A stretch of 38,648 nt of DNA from positions 1 through 38,648 of the forward strand of contig JAFTID010000086.1 of NCBI GenBank assembly GCA_017457085.1, given 5' to 3'. Source of the DNA: Phascolarctobacterium sp. (GTDB lineage Bacteria > Bacillota > Negativicutes > Acidaminococcales > Acidaminococcaceae). The translations under genes and the position numbers were made by a program. Below, one piece after another: positions 25,411-29,521 of this stretch; position 1 is the stretch's first letter; the number at the start of each line of letters is the position of its first letter. The notes beneath the pieces were generated by a model. That model was not told the origin of the DNA. It did no database searches and saw only the letters and a list, made by a program, of their open reading frames with translations.

Positions 25411-25431
25411 TTTATCTAGAATATATTAGAT

Positions 25432-25605
25432 TGGAAAACACTTGATGGGTGCGCTAGCTGCGGTTAGTGCTTAAAAGGGAATGCCGGTGTGAATCCGGAG
25501 CAGTTTCCCGCTACTGTAAGTGGAGCCTACGCAATTATGTCACTGGTGCAAACTGGGAAGGCGCGTTAGGCGATGAAGCTAAGCCAGGAGACCTGCCTGT
25601 CACTA
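25432..25605 (+). ncRNA. Cobalamin riboswitch aptamer
   Basis: The sequence has the conserved cobalamin (B12-box) elements: AAAAGGGAATGCCGGTGTGAATCCGGAGC (receptor core), CCCGCTACTGTAA, and further down GAAGCTAAGCCAGGAGACCTGCC (the B12 box). It senses adenosylcobalamin and would reduce expression of the cob operon when the cofactor is plentiful. It lies between the tsf terminator and cobU. Confidence 0.93.
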
Positions 25606-25650
25606 AACCGTAAAGCCTGCGGGAGAGACAGGTTGGTTTTTTATTTTGAT
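25596..25650 (+). terminator. First expression-platform hairpin after the riboswitch
   Basis: CCTGTC (25596-25601) pairs with GACAGG (25627-25632), followed by TTGGTTTTTTATTTT. Its left arm belongs to the aptamer end, so the hairpin is linked to ligand binding. Confidence 0.6.
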
Positions 25651-25704: not shown

Positions 25705-26283
25705 ATGAGTAACAATTTAGTTTTAGTTACAGGTGGTGCCCGTAGTGGCAAGAGTAACTTTGCTGAAAAATATGTATTGCACTTCTCTCCCAAGTGCGAT
25801 TACATTGCTACTGCAGAAATTTTAGACGAAGAGATGGCGGAGCGTGTGCGTTTGCACAGAGCGCGTCGTAATGACGGGCGGTGGGTGAACCACGAAGCAC
25901 CTTACCACGCAGAAGAAGAGTTTGCCAATTTAGGTGCAGATACTGGTGCGGTGCTGTTCGATTGCATGACACTTTATATGACGAACCAAATGTACGGCAA
26001 GACTGCCATTGAAGGAACCTTTGAAGAAAGGGTTAGCTATGTTTTGGGTGAAGTGGACAAGGTCTTAGGGGCAGCACGTGCTTGCGGTAAGCTTGTTGTG
26101 TTTGTGAGCAACGAAGTTGGTAGTGGTATTGTTCCTGACAATGTAATGGCTCGTGAATATCGTGACCTTGCTGGTTGGGTAAACCAAAAGGTTGCTGATG
26201 CCTGCGATAAAGTTTTTTACTGCGTGGCAGGACAGGCAATTGATTTGAAAAAATATGCTTTTAAATTTGAGGATGAAAAATAA
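25705..26283 (+). CDS. cobU: Adenosylcobinamide kinase / adenosylcobinamide-phosphate guanylyltransferase
   Basis: CobU phosphorylates adenosylcobinamide and attaches GMP, starting nucleotide-loop assembly of cobalamin. The 192-residue protein opens with LVTGGARSGKSNFAE, the P-loop, and has CDYIATAE, HRARRNDGRW (His region that takes part in guanylylation) and LFDCMTLYMTNQ. AGGGAGG precedes the ATG. It lies two bases from cobT, under riboswitch control. Confidence 0.96.
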   Translation: MSNNLVLVTGGARSGKSNFAEKYVLHFSPKCDYIATAEILDEEMAERVRLHRARRNDGRWVNHEAPYHAEEEFANLGADTGAVLFDCMTLYMTNQMYGKTAIEGTFEERVSYVLGEVDKVLGAARACGKLVVFVSNEVGSGIVPDNVMAREYRDLAGWVNQKVADACDKVFYCVAGQAIDLKKYAFKFEDEK

Positions 26284-26284
26284 T

Positions 26285-27295
26285 ATGGAAAAAATAATTA
26301 TACCGCCTCTTGATTTGGCAAGGGCGGAAGAAATTAGAGCAGGCTGGGCAAAAATGGACAAGCCTGCTGGAAGCTTGGGCAGGCTAGAAGAAATGGTAGT
26401 GGATTACGCTGCCATGACAGGCAAGCCTTTGCCAGAAAAGATTAAAACTGCGATGGTGTTAGTGTGTGGTGACCATGCTATTGCTAAATATGGAATTAGT
26501 GCTTATCCCCAAGAGGTTACCCTACAAATGATTAATGGTTACATGCGTGGCACTGCAGGTGCAAATGTAATGGCTCGCCATGCTGGAGCAGATGTGTTTG
26601 TTGTGGACGTAGGTACTAATTTTGATTTAAGTCATTTGGAAAAGGTTCGTCAATGCAAAGTGGCTTGGGGTACGGAAGATTTTACCCAAGGTCCTGCGAT
26701 GACTCAGGAACAAGCGGAGCAAGCCATTCGTGTTGGGATGGAAGTTGCCAACGATTGCATTGATAAAGGCTATAACCTTTTAGAAACAGCGGAGATGGGG
26801 ATTGGTAATACTACTTCTACTTCGGCAATAGTGTCTGGCTTTTTAGGTATTGACCCTGAACTGACGGTGGGGCGTGGTAGCGGAATCAATGACGAACGTA
26901 TGAAAATTAAACGCCAAGTTGTAATTGATGGCTTGACAAAAAATAAACCTAAGTTGGGTGATGCCATGGATGTTTTGTGCAAGGTGGGTGGTTACGACCA
27001 TGCAAGTCTTGCGGGTGTAATTATTGGTGGCGCTATGCGCCGCGTTCCCACTATGGTAGATGGTGTGAATGCTACGGCCGCGGCACTTCTTGCTTACGGC
27101 TTGTGCCCTGAATGTGCGAAATATATGCTGGTATCCCATTTGAGCAGCGACATCTCTCACAAAAAAATGCTGGAAGTTTTGCAACTGAAACCTATTGTTG
27201 ATGCAGGTATGCGTTTGGGTGAAGGTACTGGTGCTAATCTTGCAGTGGTAGTTTTACAAAGCGCTATTGACGTTTACAATAAACTTAGCAGGTGA
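26285..27295 (+). CDS. cobT: Nicotinate-nucleotide-dimethylbenzimidazole phosphoribosyltransferase
   Basis: CobT forms alpha-ribazole phosphate from nicotinate mononucleotide and the lower-ligand base. The 336-residue protein has KPAGSLGRLE (26-35), CGDHAIAKYGISAYPQEVT (61-79), EMGIGNTTS (170-178, Glu170) and LGEGTGAN (311-318, Glu313), so both acidic catalytic positions are present. A longer frame starts at 26255 inside cobU; the ATG at 26285, one base after its stop, fits the family. The lower ligand could be benzimidazole or a phenolic base. Confidence 0.96.
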   Translation: MEKIIIPPLDLARAEEIRAGWAKMDKPAGSLGRLEEMVVDYAAMTGKPLPEKIKTAMVLVCGDHAIAKYGISAYPQEVTLQMINGYMRGTAGANVMARHAGADVFVVDVGTNFDLSHLEKVRQCKVAWGTEDFTQGPAMTQEQAEQAIRVGMEVANDCIDKGYNLLETAEMGIGNTTSTSAIVSGFLGIDPELTVGRGSGINDERMKIKRQVVIDGLTKNKPKLGDAMDVLCKVGGYDHASLAGVIIGGAMRRVPTMVDGVNATAAALLAYGLCPECAKYMLVSHLSSDISHKKMLEVLQLKPIVDAGMRLGEGTGANLAVVVLQSAIDVYNKLSR

Positions 27296-27299
27296 AATA

Positions 27300-28037
27300 A
27301 TGCGTGATTTTATAACATGCTTGGAATTTTTAACTAGAATAAGGTTTTCTAATCGAACTGATTGGCGTGACGATGACTTTGCCAAAAGCGTGCCATACTT
27401 TCCTTTGGTGGGACTGGTAATGGGCGTGTTTATGGGCGCGGTCAATTACGGCTTGCTTTATGCTAACACACCTCTCTTTATGAGGGCAGTGCTTTTAATC
27501 TTGGCAGAGCTGCTCATAATTGGGGCGCTGATGTACGACGGCTTCATGGATACTTCTGATGGTGTGTTTAGTGCCCGCAGTCGTGAACGGATGCTGGAAA
27601 TTATGAAGGATAGTCACGTTGGCAGTAATGCAGTAATTGCTTTGGTGTGCTTGGTGCTTTTGAAAATTTCCGCTTACGTTTCTATTGACGGTATGAAGCT
27701 GTGCTACGCATTGGTAGCAATGTACGTTGCAACACGCACATTTATGGTAAACTACATCGTGAATTTTAAATACGCTCGTGAAACTGGCATTGGTCATATG
27801 TTTACCCAGTATTCCAAGCAAAGCTACGTTTTTATCGCCTTTGTAATTTGCTTGGCGTTGATTTACGCTTGCGGTTTGCCGTATCTGTACACTGCCTTTG
27901 TAGCCTTCTTCATCAGTTTGGGCATCGCTCATTTCTTGAGTGGACAGCTTGGCGGTTTGACAGGCGATACTTACGGCTTCTTAACTGAATGCGGACACGT
28001 TATTTATATGCTGGCAGCAGTTTATTTGTTGCGTTAA
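27300..28037 (+). CDS. cobS: Adenosylcobinamide-GDP ribazoletransferase
   Basis: CobS joins adenosylcobinamide-GDP and alpha-ribazole at the membrane. The 245-residue protein has several hydrophobic segments and the CDP-alcohol-like motif GALMYDGFMDTSDGVFSARSRERMLEIMKDS (about residues 80-110), the active site of the family, plus GGLTGDTYGFLTE near the end. The ATG at 27300 follows AGGTGA; the frame opens earlier at 27267. Confidence 0.94.
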   Translation: MRDFITCLEFLTRIRFSNRTDWRDDDFAKSVPYFPLVGLVMGVFMGAVNYGLLYANTPLFMRAVLLILAELLIIGALMYDGFMDTSDGVFSARSRERMLEIMKDSHVGSNAVIALVCLVLLKISAYVSIDGMKLCYALVAMYVATRTFMVNYIVNFKYARETGIGHMFTQYSKQSYVFIAFVICLALIYACGLPYLYTAFVAFFISLGIAHFLSGQLGGLTGDTYGFLTECGHVIYMLAAVYLLR

Positions 28038-28090: not shown

Positions 28091-28876
28091 ATGAATATAA
28101 ACGAAATTGTGGAGCAGATTACTCCCATTGATAAAGAGTGCGTTGCCATTGCGCAAAAACGCTTTGATGATTTGATAAAGCCAGTAGGCTCCTTGGCAAA
28201 GCTGGAAGAAATGACCTCCCGTTACGCAGGCATCATTGGCAAAACCGATAAGAACCATATTGACTATCCCAAACGTAAAATGTTAATATGGGGGAGTATT
28301 GAAAATACAAACGAAGCTGAGAAAATAATGACAGGCTCTTGGCCTATCAACGTGCTTGCGGCACAGACTGGTGCGGAAGCTATTCCCTTGCTTGCAATGG
28401 CAGAGGACGAAGCTGAAGCCATGGTTGAAGGTGCCATGCTGGTAAATGAGTACGTTAAAAAAGAAGAACTTGGTCTTTTAGGCTATGGTGCTTTATGTGA
28501 TGATAAGCTCGTTATCGCCGCTATGGCTGGTGGAATTTTGCAGGCTGTTGCCTTGAAGGTGTCTGTAATGTTAGATGGCGTTGCTACCTGTAAGGCTGCT
28601 GCCAAAGCTGTAGAGCTTGCACCCTGCGTAAAAGATTACTGCTTTGCAGGGCATGTTTCTGACGAAGAGGGAGCAGAAGAAGCTTTAAATGCTTTAGGTC
28701 TTTCTGCACCGTTACGTCTGAACATTACTGGTTGTGCAGGAGAAGGTGCTGCTGTTGCCTTTACTTTGTTCAACGCAGGCATCAAGGCGTACAAGGAAAT
28801 GGAAACCTTTGCTGAAGCAGGCGTGCACGTTGAAGTTAAGGAATTTTCTCTAGCTGAACAAAATAAAAGGAAGTAG
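28091..28876 (+). CDS. CobT-like paralogue, short and lacking key active-site motifs
   Basis: A 261-residue protein recognisably related to CobT through KPVGSLAKLEEM (30-41) and CAGEGAAVAF (215-224, Glu218 at the catalytic position). It is about 75 residues shorter. The DHAI...YPQEVT base-binding block is replaced by LIWGSIENTNEAEKI, and the EMGIGNTTS block by LLGYGALCDDKL. It sits in the cob operon between cobS and a cobC-like gene. Sporomusa ovata ArsA/ArsB shows that two CobT homologues can act as a heterodimer on phenolic bases. Whether this is such a partner, a regulator or a decaying copy cannot be told from sequence. Confidence 0.75.
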   Translation: MNINEIVEQITPIDKECVAIAQKRFDDLIKPVGSLAKLEEMTSRYAGIIGKTDKNHIDYPKRKMLIWGSIENTNEAEKIMTGSWPINVLAAQTGAEAIPLLAMAEDEAEAMVEGAMLVNEYVKKEELGLLGYGALCDDKLVIAAMAGGILQAVALKVSVMLDGVATCKAAAKAVELAPCVKDYCFAGHVSDEEGAEEALNALGLSAPLRLNITGCAGEGAAVAFTLFNAGIKAYKEMETFAEAGVHVEVKEFSLAEQNKRK

Positions 28877-28885
28877 GGAAAATAA

Positions 28886-29521
28886 ATGGCAAGAATTTAT
28901 CTGATTCGTCACGGCGAAACTGATGGAAATAAATTTAAAAGCATTCAAGGCTGTATTGACTTACCCTTGAACGCAAAGGGCATTGAGCAAGCTGAAAAGA
29001 TGGCCAATTATTTTAAAGACATTCAAATTGATGCCATCTATTGCAGTTCCATGCAACGTGCCTGCCGTACTGCCGAAGAATTGGCAAAAGTAAAAGGCTT
29101 GGAAATTCATCCCATGGATGAACTGCGCGAAATTACCTTTGGTGAATGGGAAGGCGTACCGTTTCCGGAACTGGAACGTCGCTGGCCCGAAGGCTTCAAA
29201 ACTTATTTTGCTAATCCTATGCAATGGACTCCGCCCGGTGGCGAAACCTTACCTCACGTTCAACAACGTACCTTTGGTGCCATCAAAGCTGTTCTTGAAA
29301 AGGAAGGTCACGATAAAAATATTGCCTTTGTTTGTCATGGTGGTGTTATCCGCGTACTGCTCTGCACTTTGCTGGGCTTGGACCTTGATTACATTTGGCG
29401 TTTAAGTGTTGCTAATGTATCAGTAAGTAGCTTTAACGAATGGAACGGCAAGTTCATTTCTGATACTATTAACGATTATCACTTCTTAAACGAGAAGAAA
29501 GAATTTTCTCCTGTACTTTAA
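28886..29521 (+). CDS. cobC: Histidine phosphatase, probable alpha-ribazole phosphatase
   Basis: A 211-residue phosphoglycerate-mutase-fold phosphatase: YLIRHGETDGNKF carries the phosphohistidine motif, with DLPLNAKG, CSSMQRACRTAE and FVCHGGVIRVLL, which supplies the second histidine. In the cob operon, nine bases after the CobT-like gene, it most likely removes the phosphate from alpha-ribazole phosphate or from cobalamin phosphate. The fold is shared with many unrelated phosphatases, so the name rests on context. Confidence 0.8.
   Translation: MARIYLIRHGETDGNKFKSIQGCIDLPLNAKGIEQAEKMANYFKDIQIDAIYCSSMQRACRTAEELAKVKGLEIHPMDELREITFGEWEGVPFPELERRWPEGFKTYFANPMQWTPPGGETLPHVQQRTFGAIKAVLEKEGHDKNIAFVCHGGVIRVLLCTLLGLDLDYIWRLSVANVSVSSFNEWNGKFISDTINDYHFLNEKKEFSPVL

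Follow-up and report, generated by a model that had tools for sequence, protein, structure and literature searches.

The closest described relative of the system examined here is ArsAB of Sporomusa ovata (PDB 4hdk and others), a NaMN:phenol/p-cresol phosphoribosyltransferase for which two CobT homologues are likewise encoded together. In the S. ovata ArsAB papers (Chan 2011, Newmister 2012) ArsA was reportedly the sole active subunit, and the structure paper is said to describe ArsB as a non-catalytic partner; the small-domain pocket of CobT is said to have been described in Cheong 1999.

Bacterial CobT, as presented in the accessible part of PMC9561151, is a tight dimer in which the base pocket is formed from both chains, E317 acts as the general base and E174 is located at the ribose. 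Since both chains make the base pocket, the homodimer has two composite sites. For archaeal CobT, the same part of that source (PMC9561151) describes a site in one chain, which the last residues, 333-348, help to close; the Methanocaldococcus jannaschii enzyme differs further in its dimer and in the use of Asp52 as the base. The reported share of phenolyl cobamides is 16% for human faeces and 20-34% for the bovine rumen, with S. ovata and V. parvula as the only known producers, according to the accessible text of PMC8123684. An arsAB census (PMC6461909), in its accessible part, required adjacent cobT genes and removed genes shorter than 300 aa as annotation errors.

The short gene and its operon

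The window, i.e. the whole stretch of 38,648 nucleotides of Phascolarctobacterium sp. that was analysed, carries a cobalamin riboswitch followed by an operon in the order cobU-cobT-cobS-short gene-cobC. The product of the upstream cobT is referred to as A and that of the short gene as B.

25430..25614, + strand: cobalamin riboswitch RF00174, head of the operon (cmscan 100.2 bits, gathering threshold 31.5)
25705..26283, + strand: cobU, AdoCbi kinase/guanylyltransferase (PF02283 176.5 bits; NF004469 above cut-off)
26255..27295, + strand: cobT, member of the ArsA clade and predicted catalytic subunit A (PF02277 385 bits; TIGR03160 above cut-off; best PDB match 4hdk_A, ArsA, 282 bits)
27303..28037, + strand: cobS, cobamide synthase (PF02654 165.9 bits; TIGR00317 above cut-off; frame open from TTG 27267, ATG at 27303)
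28091..28876, + strand: short ArsB-like subunit B, 261 aa, predicted to have no catalytic Glu (profile, alignment, model, selection)
28163..28207, + strand: N-terminal motif (K, P), residues 25-39 of B, FDDLIKPVGSLAKLE (kept in 60/60 B and 17/60 A)
28796..28825, + strand: C-terminal tail, residues 236-245 of B, EMETFAEAGV (not present in Acidaminococcaceae A subunits)
28886..29521, + strand: cobC-like alpha-ribazole phosphatase, a histidine phosphatase (PF00300 199 bits; TIGR03162 160.2 bits, cut-off 162.9)

The complete CobT that the first-pass annotation had placed two genes upstream of the short gene was found there, with cobS in between; its translation may start at a later Met, at 26285 instead of 26255. 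The cobC-like phosphatase lies just under the curated line of TIGR03162, and its operon context leaves little doubt about it. The order cobU-cobT-cobS-short gene-cobC was identical in the intact Acidaminococcaceae loci that were read. The split arrangement cobT-cobS-B, earlier taken to favour a non-catalytic subunit, is ordinary in this family, and G042 and G058, which are other Negativicutes, have it with a B of full length.

The open reading frame of the short gene is intact. Its product matched PF02277 (DBI_PRT) in two stretches with 122.5 bits, against a cut-off of 22.6 (E 3e-35), and its best sequence match in the PDB was ArsB of S. ovata (E 4e-19); judged from these comparisons, its match to Pfam DBI_PRT and S. 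ovata ArsB is far beyond chance. In the CobT equivalog model TIGR03160 it scored 110.4 bits, below the cut-off of 319.3, as compared with 365.2 bits for the upstream CobT. The stretches of B that could be aligned to the upstream CobT were residues 2-51 and 143-238. The PVGSL motif at the N-terminus was kept as previously described (IKPVGSL), and the DHAI...YPQEVT and EMGIGNTT blocks, already noticed as replaced, had no counterpart in the alignment. Their loss is not a peculiarity of the short gene, however, as S. ovata ArsB is likewise already without the SAYPQEVT and NTT blocks.

The GEG motif, which had been taken as retained, turned out to be out of register: the Glu of GEG in B lies two residues downstream of the catalytic one, and in the ungapped alignment to PDB 4kqh (titled CobT E317A) it is Ala216 that faces position 317. 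In the family alignment, just two of the 28 Acidaminococcaceae short proteins had Glu at the E317 column, and at the E174 column of the 28 family B proteins Glu was outside the five commonest residues. As aligned, B of the window is missing both catalytic glutamates (E174 and E317). ArsB of S. ovata, in contrast, has 350 aa and keeps the Glu at E317. The two systems differ also in that B of the window is separated from A by cobS and in that A lacks the C-terminal tail.

Predicted fold, trees and natural fusions

The fold of B was predicted with a pLDDT of 92.8 and a pTM of 0.88, and the top fold matches of the model were the ArsB chains 4hdr_B, 4hdk_B and 4hdm_B (Z 30.3-30.1, rmsd 2.0-2.8 Å, 240-243 residues), as compared with Z 28.6 for ArsA. 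Homodimeric CobT of Salmonella enterica (PDB 1d0s series) has the same fold over 235-240 residues (Z about 27.7), and the fold of CobT from M. jannaschii is related (Z 13.6, 2.9 Å, 177 residues).

Trees were calculated after removal of near copies, leaving 118 rows in a quick tree and 45 in a careful one. All 17 A proteins of the 45-protein tree grouped with S. ovata ArsA in a single clade (support 98/90), and in the quick tree 48 A rows formed one clade as well (SH-aLRT 100). In the careful tree, the Acidaminococcaceae A proteins fell into a separate subclade together with G037 and G042, to which the wider quick tree added G047 and G048; to our knowledge this subclade has no characterised member. 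All eight short B proteins in the careful tree likewise made up a single clade (100/99), whose branch is long. In the best tree this clade stood beside A (93/84, not starred), and its placement differed between the quick and the careful tree. None of the four alternative groupings was rejected: p-AU was 0.29-0.35 when short B was joined with ArsB, a grouping that took in ArsB and the remaining full-length B proteins cost 1.4 log units (p-AU 0.35), and p-AU was 0.10 with outside CobTs. The phylogeny with ArsA, ArsB and CobT that the first-pass annotation had proposed as a check is thus in favour of its view for A, which joins the ArsA clade; for B, the best position is beside A, and a union with ArsB was not rejected.

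In other Negativicutes, ArsA and ArsB occur as natural fusions of about 630-715 aa (e.g. L133 and L131), in several of which the B half is short; these contain the same two halves, but in one chain instead of two genes. The fusion L133 (ArsA plus short B, 626 aa) was modelled as a single compact unit (pLDDT 90.2, pTM 0.92), which is suggestive of a physical A-B heterodimer. Archaeal CobTs could be aligned to this model from residue 38 in A up to residues 601-607 in the tail of B, whereas Salmonella CobT aligned within A only, up to residue 339. The model suggests that the tail of B may occupy the place of the archaeal lid; as the aligned ranges give end residues only, this likeness is a hint and not a contact map. 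One fusion, L132:2282-4810 (G129), has about 180 or more extra N-terminal residues, in which no other Pfam family was found at E 0.01 (L132 being the one searched). Open frames of 826-1195 aa in G089, G108 and G156 are likewise N-terminally extended ArsA-ArsB fusions; all frames were read from stop to stop, and the N-terminal lengths are thus upper limits.

Reciprocal loss in the two proteins

Conserved positions were counted in 60 A proteins, 60 B proteins and 22 single CobTs, and changes were counted on the tree with 48 A and 48 B rows. Two sequences were left out of the counts, L060 (the broken B of G033) and L123 (which ends at a contig end); one family A and one family B come from two contigs of G028, and the single CobTs include five that the tree groups with B or close to it, namely the orphan L125 and four full-length proteins that are either solitary or linked to cobS. 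Both glutamates, E174 and E317, were kept in 60/60 A and in 8/60 B. The opposite was seen for the other elements: K and P of the N-terminal motif were both kept in all 60 B but in 17 A, TF of the C-terminal tail in 59 B and 4 A, and V245 in 60 B and 5 A. Among the 22 single CobTs, E317 was present in 21, KP in 20, and TF and V in 12 each. The rows counted, 60 A and 60 B, share ancestry, so that the plain counts do not represent independent events and the tree counts are preferable. On the tree, KP changed nine times in A and never in B, and E317 changed nine times in B and never in A, indicating that the reciprocal loss was repeated and is not a single inherited event.

A similar division was observed within Acidaminococcaceae. 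Among the columns that single CobTs conserve, the family A retains 35 that the family B has lost, nearly all of them in the catalytic domain. Another six are retained by B but lost from A, and the N-terminal KP-S loop together with the end of the last helix accounts for four of the six. T239 and F240 of B had a match in none of the 28 Acidaminococcaceae A proteins, and the K of the N-terminal motif was retained in 12 of the 28. A of the window holds E180 and E323 (equivalent to E174 and E317) and retains K and P, but its tail is missing. Outside Acidaminococcaceae, 17 of 32 B proteins have Glu at position 317, which shows that B is not fully eroded everywhere. The extreme is found in G018 and G028, where A (L054:1002-1901 and L062:1421-2326) is without most of the N-terminal part and starts near the catalytic domain, and B has 215-218 aa; read from their sequences, these pairs are probably the furthest case of one enzyme divided between two shrunken proteins. 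We also noted an orphan B-like protein in G043 (L125:1101-2147), with QGMG in place of GEG and without a partner from the A clade. The sole other homologue found in that genome is a distant single CobT (L124:2116-3180), with which it may pair.

We propose, with a probability of about 0.82, that the product of the short gene is the non-catalytic subunit, B, in a NaMN:base phosphoribosyltransferase that is a heterodimer of the ArsAB type and in which A carries the sole working site. The proposal is based on homology, fold, conservation, co-occurrence, selection and reciprocal loss, from which we infer the physical dimer and the closure of the pocket by B. The core of the earlier suggestion, a subunit without catalysis of its own that partners CobT in the manner of ArsAB, is in this way well supported by computation, namely by ArsB as the best fold match of B, the ArsA clade of A, co-occurrence, purifying selection and reciprocal motif loss. 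In the proposed enzyme, A would bind NaMN and the base, supply both glutamates and transfer the phosphoribose from NaMN to the lower-ligand base, and only A is predicted to be catalytic. B, without its own active-site loops (~85 residues) but with the fold, would complete and close the base pocket of A by means of its LIKPVGSL (KP) loop, last helix and MxTFxEAxV tail, and A would have dropped the matching elements that would serve the dead site of B. With one of the two sites in use, each protein would be free to lose the parts that serve the dead one. The reciprocal pattern would fit an obligate heterodimer whose two chains share a single composite active site: the glutamates and the partner elements, which in S. 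enterica CobT are on one chain, are divided between two proteins in the A/B pair. As a sequence rule, the pattern could distinguish a base-activating enzyme that needs both of its subunits from a pair of independent CobTs, and it names the residues to test.

Distribution, alternative readings and the lower ligand

Among 59 Acidaminococcaceae genomes (Phascolarctobacterium, Succiniclasticum), cobT was present in 47, and 46 of these had the short gene; the sole exception is a genome that is 60% complete. None of the 12 genomes without cobT had the short gene. Two of the 46 copies are damaged or incomplete, the one in G033 being broken and the one in G023 split between contig ends. The carriers span 15 genera; the nearest named relatives are Phascolarctobacterium genomes (84% identical), and P. 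faecium DSM 14760 (a B of 281 aa, separated from A by cobS) and Succiniclasticum ruminis DSM 9236 (287 aa) are among the carriers with a name. The first-pass annotation had considered that full-length CobTs as closest relatives would mean decay by recent deletion; the relatives over the 15 genera are also short. The short gene is real and conserved and is not a decaying CobT.

A decaying remnant of a duplicated CobT could be imagined from the visibly broken copy in G033 and from the stepwise shrinkage down to 215 aa. We ruled it out and consider it very improbable, given purifying selection (pairwise dN/dS 0.06-0.16 in comparisons without synonymous saturation, 0.04-0.08 for the CobT partner), the co-occurrence with cobT in 46 of 47 genomes and 19 invariant columns over 25 short sequences whose identity to that of the window goes down to 33%. 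Another reading is that B no longer binds A and works as an independent short enzyme or regulator, e.g. acting on CobS or on alpha-ribazole phosphate, as might be expected from its strong divergence and from the place of its gene, which follows cobS and precedes cobC in those intact family loci that were read. However, much of what is conserved in B consists of N- and C-terminal elements of single CobTs, the very parts lost by A, and relatives have natural A-B fusions; we therefore find this reading unlikely.

The base on which the A/B pair would act, phenol or p-cresol, is the least certain part of the explanation. The pair may be a heterodimer acting on nitrogenous bases (adenine, benzimidazoles) instead of phenols, with short B kept only as the partner in the composite site. 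This would agree with the position of the Acidaminococcaceae A proteins in a subclade of their own, with G037 and G042, in which no member is known to us as characterised, and with the occurrence of the Y/F-M-M triad of the base pocket in 11 of 22 single CobTs as well as in 60/60 A; the triad is thus compatible with phenols and not diagnostic of them. On the other hand, A of the window has Tyr, Met and Met (Y84/M92/M181) at positions 80, 88 and 175, the same residues at all three positions as the CobT variant S80Y/Q88M/L175M that was crystallised with p-cresol, and the exact Tyr-Met-Met triad was found in 48/60 A versus 1/22 single CobTs. The paired enzymes studied, from S. ovata and V. parvula, also favour phenolics according to the accessible parts of the reports. 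In a profile search of the window's own genome neither BluB nor BzaA was over the cut-off, and thus no benzimidazole synthesis was recognised there. Taking these points together, we regard action on nitrogenous bases as rather doubtful.

Matches to the BzaA model below the cut-off were seen in 50/59 genomes; as these included genomes without cobT, they are probably ThiC. ThiH is a possible source of p-cresol. Only 14 of the 59 genomes had it over the cut-off, and its occurrence did not follow that of the A/B pair.

To return to the heterodimer with its sole working site in A, gut and rumen Acidaminococcaceae seem to prepare the lower ligand of B12 with a mismatched pair in which one partner is shrunk to the parts that complete the site of the other. 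Whether the enzyme is a minimal ArsAB, with B cut to the fold, the pocket loop and the lid, and members of the family are unrecognised producers of phenolyl cobamides, we can put forward only tentatively, at somewhat short of an even chance. If true, Phascolarctobacterium (gut) and Succiniclasticum (rumen) would be unrecognised sources of phenolyl cobamides, and Acidaminococcaceae, overlooked by surveys based on gene size and order, may be producers of uncommon B12 forms, perhaps ones that carry a phenol. The gene of the window fails both the size and the adjacency filter, so the census, as far as described in the accessible part of PMC6461909, would exclude such genes; the copies in cultured P. 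faecium DSM 14760 and S. ruminis DSM 9236 would fail the same filters. No paper on the short B gene was found among the matches listed for Phascolarctobacterium cobamides, the ArsAB heterodimer and Acidaminococcaceae cobT/lower ligand, a scope mostly without subscription papers. As far as the literature found shows, the extreme reduction of B, its conservation throughout the family and the reciprocal pattern are new.

Several layouts of the pair were seen in other Negativicutes: adjacent full-length genes, A-cobS-B with a full-length B, A with a short B, and fusions. Within the genus of the window, G001 (98% complete) has neither A nor B, and base activation therefore seems to have been lost within Phascolarctobacterium. 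The Acidaminococcaceae genome G017, in turn, has two complete A/B pairs, L152:709-2655 (G017:C43) and L046 (G017:C22). In the quick tree its second A falls among those of the S. ovata type, and a second arsAB with adjacent genes was thus probably acquired.
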